A stretch of 64,000 nt of DNA, taken from NCBI RefSeq assembly GCF_030186535.1, contig NZ_JASNVW010000001.1:186001-250000 (forward strand), read 5' to 3'. This document shows, piece after piece, positions 11,279 to 38,757 of the stretch; within the stretch, counting starts at the first letter, position 1, and each line of letters begins with the position of its first letter. The position numbers and the translations under genes were made by a program. Source of the DNA: Ignisphaera cupida (GTDB lineage Archaea; Thermoproteota; Thermoprotei_A; Sulfolobales; Ignisphaeraceae). The notes under the pieces are model-generated. The model worked only from the letters and a program-made list of their open reading frames with translations. It made no database searches and had not been told where the DNA came from.

Positions 11279-12397
11279 ATGCTCATACCCAATATTTCAC
11301 ATAGCGAAAAATGGAAGCAGTTTTTTAGAAGAGATATTGGAAGAGCACTGGGTTATTGTGAAAGAATAGTGGGGTTATACAACAAACTTGCAATGAGTTC
11401 TTCTGATATTAAAACAAGAAAAATTGTTGCAGGAGTTATAGGAAAAGATACCATAGGGCATTGGAGAGATGTTCAAGAAATATTCAAGGACTTTTTTGGG
11501 GTAAGCTGTCTTCAATGTTCTGAAGCAGTAAAAAATATTGCAAAGGGAATACCATGTGAGATTGCATTGCAAAAAACATCACTTTCTTTTGATGCATCAA
11601 CCTATATCAAAGAACTCGAAGTGCTTATGTTGATATTAGCGGAGGTATATAGAGGTTCAGGTATTGCAAGACCGGATATAGATGTTTCAGTCATTGTTGA
11701 AAAAGATTATAATACTCTTTTGAACAACCCTCTTCATATAATTAGAGTATTAAAAGGTTTGTACACATCTCTACGAATGCTTTTGCCTCTATATAATGAA
11801 TTCACCTATTTTCTTTTAATAACAAGAAATATTGATGAAGAGGTCTTTGAAAAATATTTTAATAATGTAGACATGGAAATGTTAAACAGATTTGGTGTTA
11901 GATATAGAAGAATTGAGTTATGCAACAAAACACTCATATTTACTCATGATAGAAATAGTGTTGGGGAAAAGGTGCTGCTTTTAGTAAGCAATATATACAG
12001 ATTTTTTAAGCTGAGATCACACATATTAAAGAAATTCATTAGAATTGAAAATGAAAAAGAAAAATTCTTAGAGAACATGCTTAACACAGCCAATAACTTG
12101 CTTAAAGATCTAGAGATTAAGAATAATCAATTCATATATTCATTAATGTTTAGAAATGCCAGAAGGAGATTTGCTCGAGCTAAATACATTTACATATCAA
12201 CACATGTTAGAATAGATAGAGAAAACTGCAAGACTAGAATAGGATCTGTTGAAATACCATACAAAGACTTTATCAAGTATGTGGAGCCATATATGATAAC
12301 AGGTCTTCTGCATTTAGACAATATCATGAGTAAAAACAATTATGTGGAAATGGTGTTGAATGTTTATATAGATCCAAGGAACATTAGCTATAGATAA
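11279..12397 (+). CDS. Protein of unknown function, helical, 372 aa
   Basis: I do not recognise a family. The sequence is strongly helical and rich in Ile, Asn and Lys, with one Cys-x2-Cys (CLQC, ~80) and no predicted membrane span. Base composition (A-rich, many AAT/ATA codons) is more extreme than the neighbouring metabolic genes, suggesting fast evolution or lineage-specific origin. It begins at ATG 11279, 53 bases after the CoA-disulfide-reductase-like gene, and has no good Shine-Dalgarno sequence. The downstream AEC transporter is convergent. Coding status is supported by the long uninterrupted frame and protein-like composition. Confidence 0.7.
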   Translation: MLIPNISHSEKWKQFFRRDIGRALGYCERIVGLYNKLAMSSSDIKTRKIVAGVIGKDTIGHWRDVQEIFKDFFGVSCLQCSEAVKNIAKGIPCEIALQKTSLSFDASTYIKELEVLMLILAEVYRGSGIARPDIDVSVIVEKDYNTLLNNPLHIIRVLKGLYTSLRMLLPLYNEFTYFLLITRNIDEEVFEKYFNNVDMEMLNRFGVRYRRIELCNKTLIFTHDRNSVGEKVLLLVSNIYRFFKLRSHILKKFIRIENEKEKFLENMLNTANNLLKDLEIKNNQFIYSLMFRNARRRFARAKYIYISTHVRIDRENCKTRIGSVEIPYKDFIKYVEPYMITGLLHLDNIMSKNNYVEMVLNVYIDPRNISYR

Positions 12398-13371: not shown

Positions 13372-13414
13372 AACAAACTAGATGTTTTCAATAGTGACAA
13401 GAAGTGAAATGGTT

Positions 13415-13475
13415 AGCTATGTGATGATCTTGCGGCACACTGAATAGTGATGTGAAACACCTAAACTGATTAATA
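13415..13475 (+). ncRNA. C/D-box sRNA (near-canonical box and spacer geometry)
   Basis: All four boxes are present with typical archaeal spacing: C GTGATGA 13421-13427, guide 13428-13439 (12 nt, TCTTGCGGCACA), D' CTGA 13440-13443, a three-base loop, C' GTGATGT 13447-13453, guide 13454-13465 (12 nt, GAAACACCTAAA) and D CTGA 13466-13469. This geometry fits a box C/D 2'-O-methylation guide bound by L7Ae, Nop5 and fibrillarin. The D' guide would base-pair with UGUGCCGCAAGA and the D guide with UUUAGGUGUUUC; I cannot name the rRNA or tRNA targets. Flanking terminal stem is weak. Strand follows from box order. Confidence 0.8.
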
Positions 13476-13789
13476 ACATAAGTTCTTAGCTTTTCATTAA
13501 CCCAATTAAATTTAGGATTAATCAGCAGATCAATGGATAAAGGTAAAAACCCTATATTTCTCAACGAAAACACCTGTTGTTTTGCTTTTTATGTAATTCA
13601 ATTAATTTTAAATGATACCATTGTATATTCATTCCTAGAAGTTGAAGTAGTTACCAATGGAAAAGTTTTTAAGTTTTTATTTTCTGAATATAATATTAAA
13701 GTTATTACAACATCTTTAAATTAGTTGATGTTGTGATTAGAGTTAGAAACATTTTTAATAGCATTTGATTAGCTTTTTTATGGCGATAA
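13476..13789. other. Non-coding spacer, 314 bases
   Basis: Between the C/D sRNA and the ATP-grasp/HAD gene I see no convincing gene. A 63-codon plus-strand frame (13533-13724) lacks a ribosome-binding site and has poor protein character. CATTTTTAATAGC near 13750-13762 is a probable TATA element for the downstream gene. Confidence 0.4.
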
Positions 13790-15613
13790 TTGTTGAAAAG
13801 CAAATGTGTTGTAGTAGCTTCTATAGCTTCTCGAAAATCTGTAGCAATAGCTAAGTCTATAAAAAGTTTATTGAATGTGAAAGTTGTTGGCATTTCTCAC
13901 ACTTTTCATCCACACATATTTTCACGTGTTTTTGACTACAAATATTTTTATAGGGTTGATAGAAGAGGTGTTGTGTGGCCTTATATAGTTGCTTCAATTG
14001 CTTATAAGAATGGCTGTGAAGTTGTTGTACCTGTTGACTATGCTGATTTCACAAGTTTTTCTAAGTATGTTGACATGTTTCGTGAATTGAAAATAGCTGT
14101 TGCAGCACCAAGTTATGAAGATATTGTTTTAGCTTCTGATAGAGTTAGAGTTGTTGATAAATTAGCTAGTATTGCTATGTTTCCTAAACAAGTCTTTATA
14201 GATAATGGACATAGCTTTGAAAAAGTCTATGAATTACTTCCACCACTTGTTGTAAAAGATCTTGGAGAAGCCTCAAATTCAACATTTCATTTAGACTATG
14301 AATCAGCAGCTGAAGAGGTTTTTGAAAGAGCTCCATGTATTGTTCAAGAATATGTTGAAGGTGTTGCAAGAGGGTATTACGCTTTGGCATTCAATGGCGA
14401 GCCAATTATTGAATTCACACATCAAAGAGTTGTTGAGTATTTGCCTATTGGGGGTGCAAGTCTATATGCTAAAGGACCTGTTAAAGACCCGTTGCTATAT
14501 GCTATTGGAAGAAGAATCGTTAGAGCATTGAATTGGAGTGGCATTATAATGATTGAAACGAGATATGTTGATGAGTCTGGAACATACTATGTTATTGAAA
14601 TAAATCCCAAGTTCTGGGGAAGCATAGATCTATCAGTAACTCTGGGATATCACTTTCCAGCAATACTTGTTTCTGCTTATATCTATGGTGTTGAGAAGGC
14701 AAGGGAACTAGCAGGAAGTTTAAAAGTTAGTAGAGGAGAGTTTATATGGGGTTTAGATGGGTTGAGATACTTAGTTAAAATACCTTCAACATGGTTTTAC
14801 ATGGCCAAAAACATCTTTATGAATCCCCTGAACAGCGATACTGATTTTCTGGATCCTGCAAAAAACTTAGTACAGATTTTAAAGGCTATTGAAAGATTTG
14901 GTAGAGAGTCTAGCAACTGGAGAGCATATTTAGAAAGTGCTAGGAATGAGTCTAGATATTGGATTAAAAGGTTTATGCAGTTTGTGAATAGTTTTGAAAG
15001 AGTTGTTATATTCGATTTGGATTCAACACTAACTTTACTTCCAGTGCAATGGAGAAGTGTTAGAGCAAGGCTTATGAGACTTGGACTAGTAATGGAGTGG
15101 GAAACTATAAACAGAGCTATGGTGAGGCTTTGGAGAACAGATATCGAGAAGTTTAAGATGTTATCCAATATCATTGAAGAGGAGGAGCTAAAATCTTTAG
15201 AGAAACTTAGCGAGAATAACTTGTATGTTCCAAGAGATCTTTTAGAGAAACTTGCTGAAGAGACAAGGGTATGTGTAGCAACAAAACAAAGTTTCAAAGT
15301 CGCAAAATTGGTTGTTAACAAGCTTGGTATTGCAAAATACGTTGATAACATAGTTGGCAGAGATGGTGATGTCGGCCCAGAAAAAATTGCTATGTACCTT
15401 AAATGCATAAATGGCTATGAAAACGCAAAAGCAGTTGTAATCGATGATAATATTGAATATGTTGTAAATGCTTATAGAAAAGGCTTTACACCTATGCTAG
15501 CCTCCAACAATAAATACAAAATTGCTAGGGTTTATCGACTTGGAATTCCAGCAGGCTCTACAGAAAAGCTTGTTAGTTTTATTTTACATGCTCTCAGCTC
15601 TTTGAAGCAATAA
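13790..15613 (+). CDS. Two-domain ATP-grasp ligase / HAD-superfamily hydrolase fusion
   Basis: Residues ~1-330 form an ATP-grasp enzyme: PPLVVKDLGEAS (ATP-binding Lys), PCIVQEYVEGVARG and the metal site VIEINPKFWGSIDLS. Residues ~400-607 form a HAD phosphohydrolase: motif I FDLDST (Asp409, Asp411), motif II VATK, motif III Lys in GPEK (~532) and motif IV VIDDN (Asp552, Asp553). ATP-grasp enzymes make acyl-phosphate intermediates and join them to amines; the HAD half could remove a phosphate from substrate or product. Starts are TTG 13790 or 13793 with no ribosome-binding site. Its 3' end overlaps atpD by 30 bases, convergently. The substrate is unknown. Confidence 0.8.
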   Translation: MLKSKCVVVASIASRKSVAIAKSIKSLLNVKVVGISHTFHPHIFSRVFDYKYFYRVDRRGVVWPYIVASIAYKNGCEVVVPVDYADFTSFSKYVDMFRELKIAVAAPSYEDIVLASDRVRVVDKLASIAMFPKQVFIDNGHSFEKVYELLPPLVVKDLGEASNSTFHLDYESAAEEVFERAPCIVQEYVEGVARGYYALAFNGEPIIEFTHQRVVEYLPIGGASLYAKGPVKDPLLYAIGRRIVRALNWSGIIMIETRYVDESGTYYVIEINPKFWGSIDLSVTLGYHFPAILVSAYIYGVEKARELAGSLKVSRGEFIWGLDGLRYLVKIPSTWFYMAKNIFMNPLNSDTDFLDPAKNLVQILKAIERFGRESSNWRAYLESARNESRYWIKRFMQFVNSFERVVIFDLDSTLTLLPVQWRSVRARLMRLGLVMEWETINRAMVRLWRTDIEKFKMLSNIIEEEELKSLEKLSENNLYVPRDLLEKLAEETRVCVATKQSFKVAKLVVNKLGIAKYVDNIVGRDGDVGPEKIAMYLKCINGYENAKAVVIDDNIEYVVNAYRKGFTPMLASNNKYKIARVYRLGIPAGSTEKLVSFILHALSSLKQ

Positions 15614-16195
15614 TGCCTTTACCTTCATACTTCTAACTTTCTCTTCTCGCTCCATTTCATCAAATTTCATCATAAGGTATCTTATTGTGGTTAAGAGTCT
15701 TGGGATCAAGACCTTTTCAAGCATTGTAACAATTCTCTTTACTCTAGAAATTTCTATTGCAAGCTCTATCAACTCTTTTTCGTATTCAGCCACAGAAATC
15801 AATGTTTCTAAGAACTCTTTGCGTCTCATCTGAATACTGGATACTTCAATTGGTAAAGCTGGTGTGTGTAGTGGTATGGATGAAGCCTCCATTGATGGTG
15901 CTACAACACCCATGATGTTTCTAGTAGATGCAACAACCTCTGCCACTTCACCAATAGTTTGAGCACCCTCGTTGAGAGTCTCTAAACCGTGTAGTGCAAC
16001 AGCATATGCGTAATCATTGTAAATATCATTAAGCATTTCATGGAGTTTGCGTCTAGCATCATAAGCTTTTCTAAAAACTATGTAAAATTCTTGCAAAAGA
16101 AATGTTAGCCTATCTCTTAAAATTCTGTGGATTCTTCTACTTAATGCAAGTCTTCTTCTAAGTCTTATAAGCTCTATTTTTGTTGGTCTTGGCAA
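15584..16195 (-). CDS. atpD: A-type ATP synthase subunit D (central stalk)
   Basis: Long coiled-coil rotor shaft inside the A3B3 head. The start MPRPTKIELIRLRRRLALSR is diagnostic for subunit D, and a second long helix follows around EYEKELIELAIEISRVKRIV. It has 203 residues, as expected. The start is TTG 16195 without an evident Shine-Dalgarno sequence, so it probably relies on coupling with atpB 22 bases upstream. It is the last gene of the leftward operon and its tail overlaps the convergent ATP-grasp/HAD gene by 30 bases. Confidence 0.93.
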   Translation of the reverse strand: MPRPTKIELIRLRRRLALSRRIHRILRDRLTFLLQEFYIVFRKAYDARRKLHEMLNDIYNDYAYAVALHGLETLNEGAQTIGEVAEVVASTRNIMGVVAPSMEASSIPLHTPALPIEVSSIQMRRKEFLETLISVAEYEKELIELAIEISRVKRIVTMLEKVLIPRLLTTIRYLMMKFDEMEREEKVRSMKVKALLLQRAESM

Positions 16196-37136: not shown

Positions 37137-38684
37137 ATGGACAAACTCAAGGCTGAAATAGTTATAACGACAGATAGATCTATGATGACTAATCATCATG
37201 GAAGAGAGTTTATAGGGTTCTTAGCAACAGGACCAGCCATAGGAGTTCCAGAAGCACTGTGGATGTATCTTTGTTGCCCAAAGCCTAAAGTTGATGAGTT
37301 TGGAAGACCATTTGAAGCACCCTATGGTTTACGCAAAATTGAGGCAGCACTTCAAGATGCTGGTTTGGAGGCTCATGTGATAGACCCAGACTATCTCGAT
37401 AGGTACATAGAATCTGCAAAAATTTTGATGATTGGTCATCACGATTATTTTGCATTTGGCCCTCCAAGCTCAGAATGGTGGCTTATCACAGGTAAGGAAC
37501 CTGTGAATAGAAAAAGTTTCTTTAGGCTTATGGAAAGCGATGCAGTAAGGAAAATGCGTAGTAGAAATGTTAAGATTGTTGTTGGAGGTCCAGCAGCTTG
37601 GCAGTGGCTTTGGGTACCAGAATATGTGGATAAGTGGGGAATTGACGTTATTGTTGAAGGTGAAGCTGATGAGATTGTTGTTGATATTGCTAAAAAGATT
37701 CTCAATGGTGAGGAGGTGCCAAAATATATTTCTGTTGGGGCTTTGGAATCTCCACCGATAGAAAAGATACCAGTAATAAAAAGAGCAAGTGTTAATGGAT
37801 TAGTTGAAATTATGAGGGGATGTCCAAGAGGATGCAAATTCTGTAGCGTTACGTTAAGACCTCTTAGACACATACCCATAGAAAAAATAGTTAAAGAAAT
37901 CGAGGTTAACAAAAGCTATGGTGTTAAAAACGCTATTTTACATAGCGAAGATGTTTTGCTCTATGGTTCAAAAGGTATAGAACCAAATGAAGAAGCTTTG
38001 ATTAAACTTCATGATGCTATAACCAAGGTTGTTAATGGCATGGCATGGGCTCATGTATCGCTAGCTACAGTTGTTTATGCTCAAAGAAAATACAAATTAA
38101 TAACGAAAATAACAGAGATTGTATATTCAAGATTGGAGCAAAATTATATAGGTGTTGAAGTTGGTATAGAGACAGGGTCGCCTCGCTTAGCAAAAATTGT
38201 AATGCCTGCAAAGGCTGCTCCGTTTAAGACTGAAGAATGGCCTGATATAGTTGAGGAAGCATTTGCTATTATGCATGATCATAGGATAATACCTGCAGCA
38301 ACATTTATACTTGGTTTTCCTGGTGAAGAGCCAGATGATGTTGTTAAAACAATTGAGTTATTAGAACGGCTAAAGAAATACAGAAGTCTTATTGTGCCCA
38401 TGTTGTTTGTTCCAATGGGTGTGTTGAAAAGTGAGGAAGGTGGTGTAACAGGTATGAAGATAATACATGAACATGCAGAAGCTATGAGAGTAGCGTTTTG
38501 GCATACAATTCACTGGGCTGAGGATATAATAACGAATTTCTATATGAGGGGATTCAAATATGAGCCATTAAAACTCATAATAAAGGCATTTCTGTGGTTT
38601 GCAAAAAGAAAAATGATTGAAATTGAGAAAAATGTATTACCAAGATTCACAGAAAAGGAATTGTCATTGAAAACAAATCAGTAG
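37137..38684 (+). CDS. Radical SAM enzyme with B12-binding-like N-terminal domain
   Basis: Domain order: N-terminal Rossmann region resembling a cobalamin-binding fold (~40-190, GGPAAWQWLW, VEGEADEIV) but without the DxHxxG lower-ligand motif, then the radical SAM barrel with CPRGCKFC (Cys229, Cys233, Cys236). It has 515 residues. It belongs to the broad archaeal class of B12-type radical SAM proteins, with methylation or methylthiolation likely but substrate unknown. ATG 37137 lies behind the shared palindromic promoter. A second such enzyme is at 51664. Confidence 0.85.
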   Translation: MDKLKAEIVITTDRSMMTNHHGREFIGFLATGPAIGVPEALWMYLCCPKPKVDEFGRPFEAPYGLRKIEAALQDAGLEAHVIDPDYLDRYIESAKILMIGHHDYFAFGPPSSEWWLITGKEPVNRKSFFRLMESDAVRKMRSRNVKIVVGGPAAWQWLWVPEYVDKWGIDVIVEGEADEIVVDIAKKILNGEEVPKYISVGALESPPIEKIPVIKRASVNGLVEIMRGCPRGCKFCSVTLRPLRHIPIEKIVKEIEVNKSYGVKNAILHSEDVLLYGSKGIEPNEEALIKLHDAITKVVNGMAWAHVSLATVVYAQRKYKLITKITEIVYSRLEQNYIGVEVGIETGSPRLAKIVMPAKAAPFKTEEWPDIVEEAFAIMHDHRIIPAATFILGFPGEEPDDVVKTIELLERLKKYRSLIVPMLFVPMGVLKSEEGGVTGMKIIHEHAEAMRVAFWHTIHWAEDIITNFYMRGFKYEPLKLIIKAFLWFAKRKMIEIEKNVLPRFTEKELSLKTNQ

Positions 38685-38757
38685 AATAGCGAAATAACAA
38701 ATGATGTGCATTACATTTTTAATAAAATAGGAGTCAGATATAGTTTTTGAGAACAAC

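Follow-up and report, generated by a model that had tools for sequence, protein, structure and literature searches.

With respect to described pathways, the Wbp-Vim pathway of Porphyromonas gingivalis is among those closest to the system presented here, the core of which is an ATP-grasp ligase fused to a HAD phosphatase. In Porphyromonas, VimE has been proposed to remove an N-acetyl group, after which VimA adds a seryl or glycyl residue (PMC7468200). A VimE-like partner deacetylase and the logic of the pathway, i.e., N-acetyl off and amino acid on, appear to be common to both systems, whereas the addition of the amino acid, proposed for the FemAB/GNAT-like VimA in P. gingivalis (PMC7468200), would here be the task of an ATP-grasp enzyme, with a phosphatase in addition. 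Described relatives also exist for the single domains. ATP-grasp proteins of the PRK12767 type ("carbamoyl phosphate synthase-like"), among them the protein of structure 2pn1, share fold and sequence with the ligase half, but 2pn1 is a chain of 331 residues that lacks a HAD domain. The nearest solved folds to the HAD half, the alnumycin P phosphatase AlnB and beta-phosphoglucomutase (HAD IA/C1 cap), are about 14–20% identical to it and lack a ligase domain. Beside unfused relatives of the ATP-grasp half, the place of the phosphatase is taken by PHP phosphoesterases near CehA/McbA and nucleoside-bisphosphate phosphatase; these have a fold unrelated to HAD and are not found near the fused gene. 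Each domain is known as such; a description of the fusion or of a three-part module with interchangeable phosphatases was not found in the openly accessible literature, which is no proof of novelty.

In the window, i.e., the whole stretch of 64,000 nucleotides of Ignisphaera cupida DNA that was analyzed, the fusion is encoded on the forward strand by an intact open reading frame with a TTG start codon (positions 13790 to 15613, 607 residues), and its orthologs are intact in seven other Ignisphaera genomes. The chain is divided into an ATP-grasp ligase unit (residues about 1–355, positions 13790 to 14854, forward strand), assigned on the basis of matches to PRK12767-type models, invariant residues and a profile as well as a fold match to 2pn1, a long helical linker seen in the AlphaFold2 model (residues about 356–400, positions 14855 to 14989, forward strand), and a HAD subclass IA phosphatase domain (residues about 401–607, positions 14990 to 15610, forward strand), assigned by TIGR01549, by alignment and by a model of the HAD half alone. 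An alignment of 21 full-length fusions shows K156, R241, E256, E270 and N272 of the ATP-grasp half to be invariant; this set, comprising the ATP-binding lysine, the Mg-binding Glu/Glu/Asn and the catalytic arginine, is present in all 21 proteins, and H211, R213, E216, G221-G222 and S224 are constant in all of them as well. Among the HAD residues, D409 and D411 are invariant across the 21 fusions, position 498 is occupied by Thr or Ser (T498 in the window protein), position 532 by Lys in 18 and by Arg in three proteins, and D553 is retained in 20, the Asgard homolog at locus L001 having Asn instead. Motifs I–IV (DxD, T/S, K, acidic pair) and a helical cap following motif I are present, as is characteristic of HAD subclass IA, and W421, E466, Q500 and R524 of the window protein are subfamily residues. 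The first-pass annotation had described one 607-residue chain with full ATP-grasp and HAD motif sets, and this description holds: the motifs are conserved in 21 homologs, the models fold accordingly, the HAD residue numbers given (409, 411, 532, 552 and 553) are correct, no key residue is missing from either half, and no known family that would explain both halves was found in the profile libraries searched. In view of the 21 full-length homologs, a chance fusion or an assembly join was rejected. Values for dN/dS of about 0.12–0.25 were obtained for both halves in close pairs, in which both halves are under purifying selection.

Among NCBIfam models, those of the PRK12767 type matched the ATP-grasp half best (E=1.9e-11), far under equivalog cut-offs, and the Pfam models ATP-grasp_3 and ATPgrasp_Ter matched it only below cut-off. 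The HAD half reached 23.1 bits with TIGR01549 (HAD-IA; cut-off 23.3), and homologs score higher, with HAD_2 matched at 3e-17 to 3e-18 in L003 and L001. For the ATP-grasp half, both a profile search of the PDB (E=4.6e-18) and a fold search with the model (TMt 0.75) returned 2pn1. The AlphaFold2 model of the whole chain (pLDDT 87, pTM 0.85) and that of the HAD half alone (pLDDT 81), the latter being closest to AlnB phosphatase and beta-phosphoglucomutase among PDB folds, were built from thin alignments of 13 and 4 sequences taken from the window protein and related loci only. Judged by sequence and models, the chain consists of a predicted amide-forming ligase domain and a predicted phosphatase domain, both of which appear catalytically complete. 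An identity as a Ter-operon ATP-grasp, suggested by the weak match of the ligase half to ATPgrasp_Ter (PF15632, a family of a Ter-linked biosynthetic pathway; E=2e-4, 21.6 bits vs. a gathering threshold of 29.1), was rejected, as this match lies below the cut-off and no Ter-operon-like genes were recognized by eye among the neighbors of the homologs.

With regard to gene neighborhood, the relatives within the genus proved informative. All seven fusion-bearing Ignisphaera relatives possess a divergently adjacent deacetylase-like gene at a distance of 19–54 bp from the fusion, the product of which comprises about 260 residues with an LTHDVD motif, and the gene is absent from all three Ignisphaera genomes without the fusion. 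The pair is intact in four different gene neighborhoods, adjoining the A/V-ATPase operon in four of the seven relatives and residing at three different sites in the other three, which indicates that it moves as a unit. The Ignisphaera partner proteins weakly match Polysacc_deac_1 (PF01522, E=6e-6) and WbmS-like models. Longer relatives (L001, L092 and L123) match the model for VimE, a UDP-2,3-diacetamido-2,3-dideoxy-glucuronate deacetylase, with E=9e-29 to 8e-38, below its equivalog cut-off of 440 bits. CE4-like residues are retained, and the partner is probably a polysaccharide-deacetylase-like, VimE/WbmS-like protein, a name taken from distant homology. Among the 23 fused loci overall, 14 have the deacetylase gene no more than 100 bp from the fusion and 18 have it no more than 5 kb away. 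Of the five others, four are located at a contig end or on a contig shorter than 4 kb, and one of these (G361) shows part of a deacetylase gene on its short contig; the remaining locus is that of the window. The deacetylase family was matched in 32 of 398 Thermoproteota genomes; it is present in 15 of 17 genomes with the fusion, counting a remnant in the window genome, vs. 17 of the 381 that lack the fusion (Fisher p about 1e-16, phylogeny ignored).

Genes for glycosyltransferases, a flippase and NeuA/NeuB-like proteins surround the homologs at L001, L005 and L132. The combination of deacetylase, ATP-grasp enzyme and phosphatase, with glycan genes around homologs, points to amino sugar modification in a glycan. 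In our favored reading, to which we give an even chance, the fusion is bifunctional and belongs to a conserved three-part module, by which the N-acyl group of an amino sugar is altered during the synthesis of surface glycans. A CE4-like, VimE/WbmS-like deacetylase, encoded by a separate gene, would remove an N-acetyl group and expose the amine. The ATP-grasp half, which could do the work of VimA using ATP, would then activate a carboxylic acid as acyl phosphate with ATP/Mg and join it to this amine, the acid being an amino acid or hydroxy acid that is possibly phosphorylated. Finally, the HAD-IA half would cleave a phosphate ester on a small molecule that is used or formed in the ligation step, be it on the acyl group, the sugar or another intermediate, and in other lineages this step would be taken over by a separate HAD protein or by an unrelated PHP phosphoesterase. 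What we infer from this arrangement is the amino sugar as substrate, the formation of the amide at the exposed amine, the sequence of the reactions and the molecule carrying the phosphate. Two consecutive steps, ligation and removal of a phosphate, had already been suggested in the first-pass annotation; amide ligation and phosphate removal are probably linked, both being activities predicted from sequence. Of the settings considered there, i.e., coenzyme, peptide or sugar acid synthesis, the context favors sugar or glycan chemistry, and coenzyme or peptide synthesis was rejected as no such genes were recognized near the homologs. Against the favored reading stand the naming of the deacetylase from distant relatives, which the Ignisphaera copies match weakly, and the position of the Ignisphaera pair, which lies outside any glycan cluster.

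Formation of an amide on a freed amine is not the only reaction that an ATP-grasp enzyme could contribute to such a pathway. Enzymes of this type form amides in either direction, and uronic acids that bear amino acids in amide linkage are found in archaeal N-glycans and bacterial O-antigens, so that the ATP-grasp half might amidate or aminoacylate a sugar carboxyl group, with deacetylase and phosphatase acting elsewhere in that glycan pathway. We regard this as unlikely, since the tight pairing with the deacetylase is better explained if the deacetylase product is the substrate of the ligase.

A VimA-type FemAB/GNAT gene next to the deacetylase is not the pattern; its place is occupied by the ATP-grasp gene. 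FemAB-like genes were found only near L007, L017, L096 and L138. At L096 (6191–7712) and L138 (12383–15673) the deacetylase gene lies directly beside FemAB-like genes, equivalent to the VimE/VimA arrangement, and an ATP-grasp gene of the family of the fusion is located a few genes away. A link to archaeosortase, suggested by the VimE match, was rejected because PF09721 (archaeosortase/exosortase) was detected in only one of 11 genomes of the genus, the window genome not being the one; this lone match is located at G003:C1:150245-151045 (L070).

In the window itself, a gap of 418 bp between two flanking genes (positions 13372 to 13789) marks, by synteny with L050–L052, the site where relatives carry the gene for the LTHDVD deacetylase, and tblastn revealed no remnant of it there. 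A broken, frameshifted N-terminal remnant of a deacetylase gene is present on another contig (G000:C3, about 38406-38700; L069 8407-8701), where it adjoins glycosyltransferase-like genes. It is nearer to the copy from genome G001 than to those of the closest relatives and may therefore not descend from the copy lost from the window. A functional deacetylase elsewhere in the window genome was rejected, as this broken remnant is all that was found and no PF01522 gene was detected in the genome. The statement in the first-pass annotation that no known pathway gene is adjacent is thus true of the window, the lineage of which has lost the deacetylase, but it is misleading with regard to the fusion-bearing relatives. 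The window copy of the fusion was rejected as a decaying pseudogene left behind by this loss, given its intact reading frame and its catalytic residues; its branch length in the ATP-grasp tree is 0.24 vs. about 0.20 in its sisters. Retention of a normal-looking fusion after loss of the deacetylase speaks against the favored three-part module, and in the window species either the deacetylase is dispensable, or it has been replaced by an unrecognized enzyme, or the fusion works without it.

The fused ATP-grasp has unfused relatives in euryarchaea, bacteria and some Asgard genomes, and these have a deacetylase gene within 5 kb in 22 of 30 loci. A gene for a PHP phosphoesterase is located within 300 bp of the unfused ATP-grasp gene in 20 of these 30 loci (21 of 31 when L154 is included), in several gene orders and often overlapping it, vs. 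none of the 23 fused loci. L154, from the thermoproteotal genome G211, represents an unfused close relative that forms part of a deacetylase/ATP-grasp/PHP trio. Seven further loci (L156, L157, L159, L160, L163, L165 and L166), stemming from Thermoproteota that possess the deacetylase and lack the fusion, contain a trio of deacetylase, ATP-grasp and separate HAD genes. The ATP-grasp proteins of these trios are different members of the same broad family as the fused one, and the HAD proteins, of the same subfamily as the fused HAD, match its profile with E=2e-20 to 1e-30. Five that were aligned share its signature of a Trp after motif I, a cap Glu, a Gln after motif II and an Arg before the motif III lysine. 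The survey for split homologs put forward in the first-pass annotation thus had a positive outcome, in that HADs of this subfamily also occur as separate proteins encoded beside an ATP-grasp enzyme and this deacetylase. Five other thermoproteotal loci (L161, L162, L164, L167 and L168, L164 terminating at a contig end) feature deacetylase and ATP-grasp genes with neither HAD nor PHP nearby, such that the phosphatase is not always linked, a point against the favored reading. Genes were called by a simple longest-ORF method and at least two HAD genes stayed hidden until all ORFs were searched; absences are therefore less certain than presences where only called genes were scanned.

These arrangements bear on what the phosphatase may act upon, and on whether its presence has any meaning for the ligase. 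The two halves could have been fused for stability or co-regulation only and catalyze unrelated reactions, with the deacetylase as a hitch-hiking glycan gene, as might be read from the window species with its fusion and no deacetylase. Already because of the split trios, in which a HAD gene of the same subfamily stands separately and directly beside deacetylase and ATP-grasp genes at seven loci, and with PHP substituting for HAD elsewhere, we hold this to be very improbable.

More specific is a form of the favored reading in which the acid joined to the sugar amine by the ATP-grasp half bears a phosphate (3-phosphoglycerate, phosphoserine or similar) that the HAD half subsequently removes, yielding an N-glyceroyl or N-seryl sugar. 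Consecutive action of the two halves of the chain would thereby make sense. HAD and PHP enzymes replace each other on small phosphomonoesters, as is the case for histidinol phosphatase, and the observed HAD/PHP alternation matches such an interchange. Precedents are provided by mannosyl-3-phosphoglycerate synthase, the action of which is followed by that of a HAD phosphatase, and by trehalose-6-phosphate synthase/phosphatase fusions. The sequence, however, gives no donor identity, and in this specific form the proposal is improbable rather than probable. Stated more broadly, a tRNA-independent ATP-grasp route would exchange the N-acetyl group of surface amino sugars for a phosphorylated acyl group, the phosphate then being removed by a PHP enzyme or by a HAD, either fused or separate; we consider this rather doubtful, but if true it would constitute a previously undescribed modification step that is widespread in archaea and bacteria.

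Alternatively, the phosphate may reside on the sugar. HAD or PHP would then act first, on a sugar phosphate or sugar-inositol phosphate, to be followed by deacetylation and ligation, and the product would be a small soluble molecule or thiol instead of a glycan. Phosphatase, deacetylase and ATP-dependent amino-acid ligase act in this order in mycothiol synthesis, GT4-type genes are found near L001 and L002, and the fold of the HAD half is nearest to HADs of the sugar-phosphate type. On the other hand, several of the loci are embedded in polysaccharide clusters that include flippase and sialic-acid-type genes, and the distribution of the module, patchy and with sister species lacking it, differs from that of a core cofactor; we consider this alternative distinctly unlikely.

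Intact fusions occur in eight of 11 Ignisphaera genomes, in 17 of 398 sampled Thermoproteota genomes, the 18th match (G211) being unfused, and in two of 227 genomes of the phylum to which the Asgard locus L001 belongs, a distribution that is patchy yet widespread. Fused ATP-grasps form one clade in the ATP-grasp tree (support 100/100), indicating a single origin of the fusion in this sample. The contrast between HAD and PHP consequently represents one event, not many independent ones, and this reliance of the alternation on a single fusion event also weighs against the favored module.

Taken as a recurring module of archaea and bacteria, deacetylase, ATP-grasp ligase and phosphatase, the last supplied in three ways, bear on the role of many genes of polysaccharide clusters, both PHP genes and ATP-grasp genes of the "carbamoyl phosphate synthase-like" kind. 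Many modified amino sugars of archaeal surface glycans lack assigned enzymes.

Some observations concern the surroundings of the window gene and a second type of fusion. Downstream, the fusion gene and a gene for A/V-type ATPase subunit D on the reverse strand (positions 15584 to 16195; PF01813, E=2.1e-38), a neighbor outside the module, overlap tail to tail at their 3' ends by 30 bp (15584–15613), and comparable overlaps are found in L050–L053. Positions 11279 to 12397 encode a protein of 372 residues that has no Pfam or NCBIfam match and adjoins an FAD oxidoreductase, as it also does in at least three Ignisphaera relatives. At L010 (7818–9605), an ATP-grasp of the unfused clade, located in a polysaccharide-type cluster, carries a C-terminal P-loop domain resembling nucleoside/dTMP-type kinases (weak AAA_28 match) and thus represents another ATP-grasp fusion.
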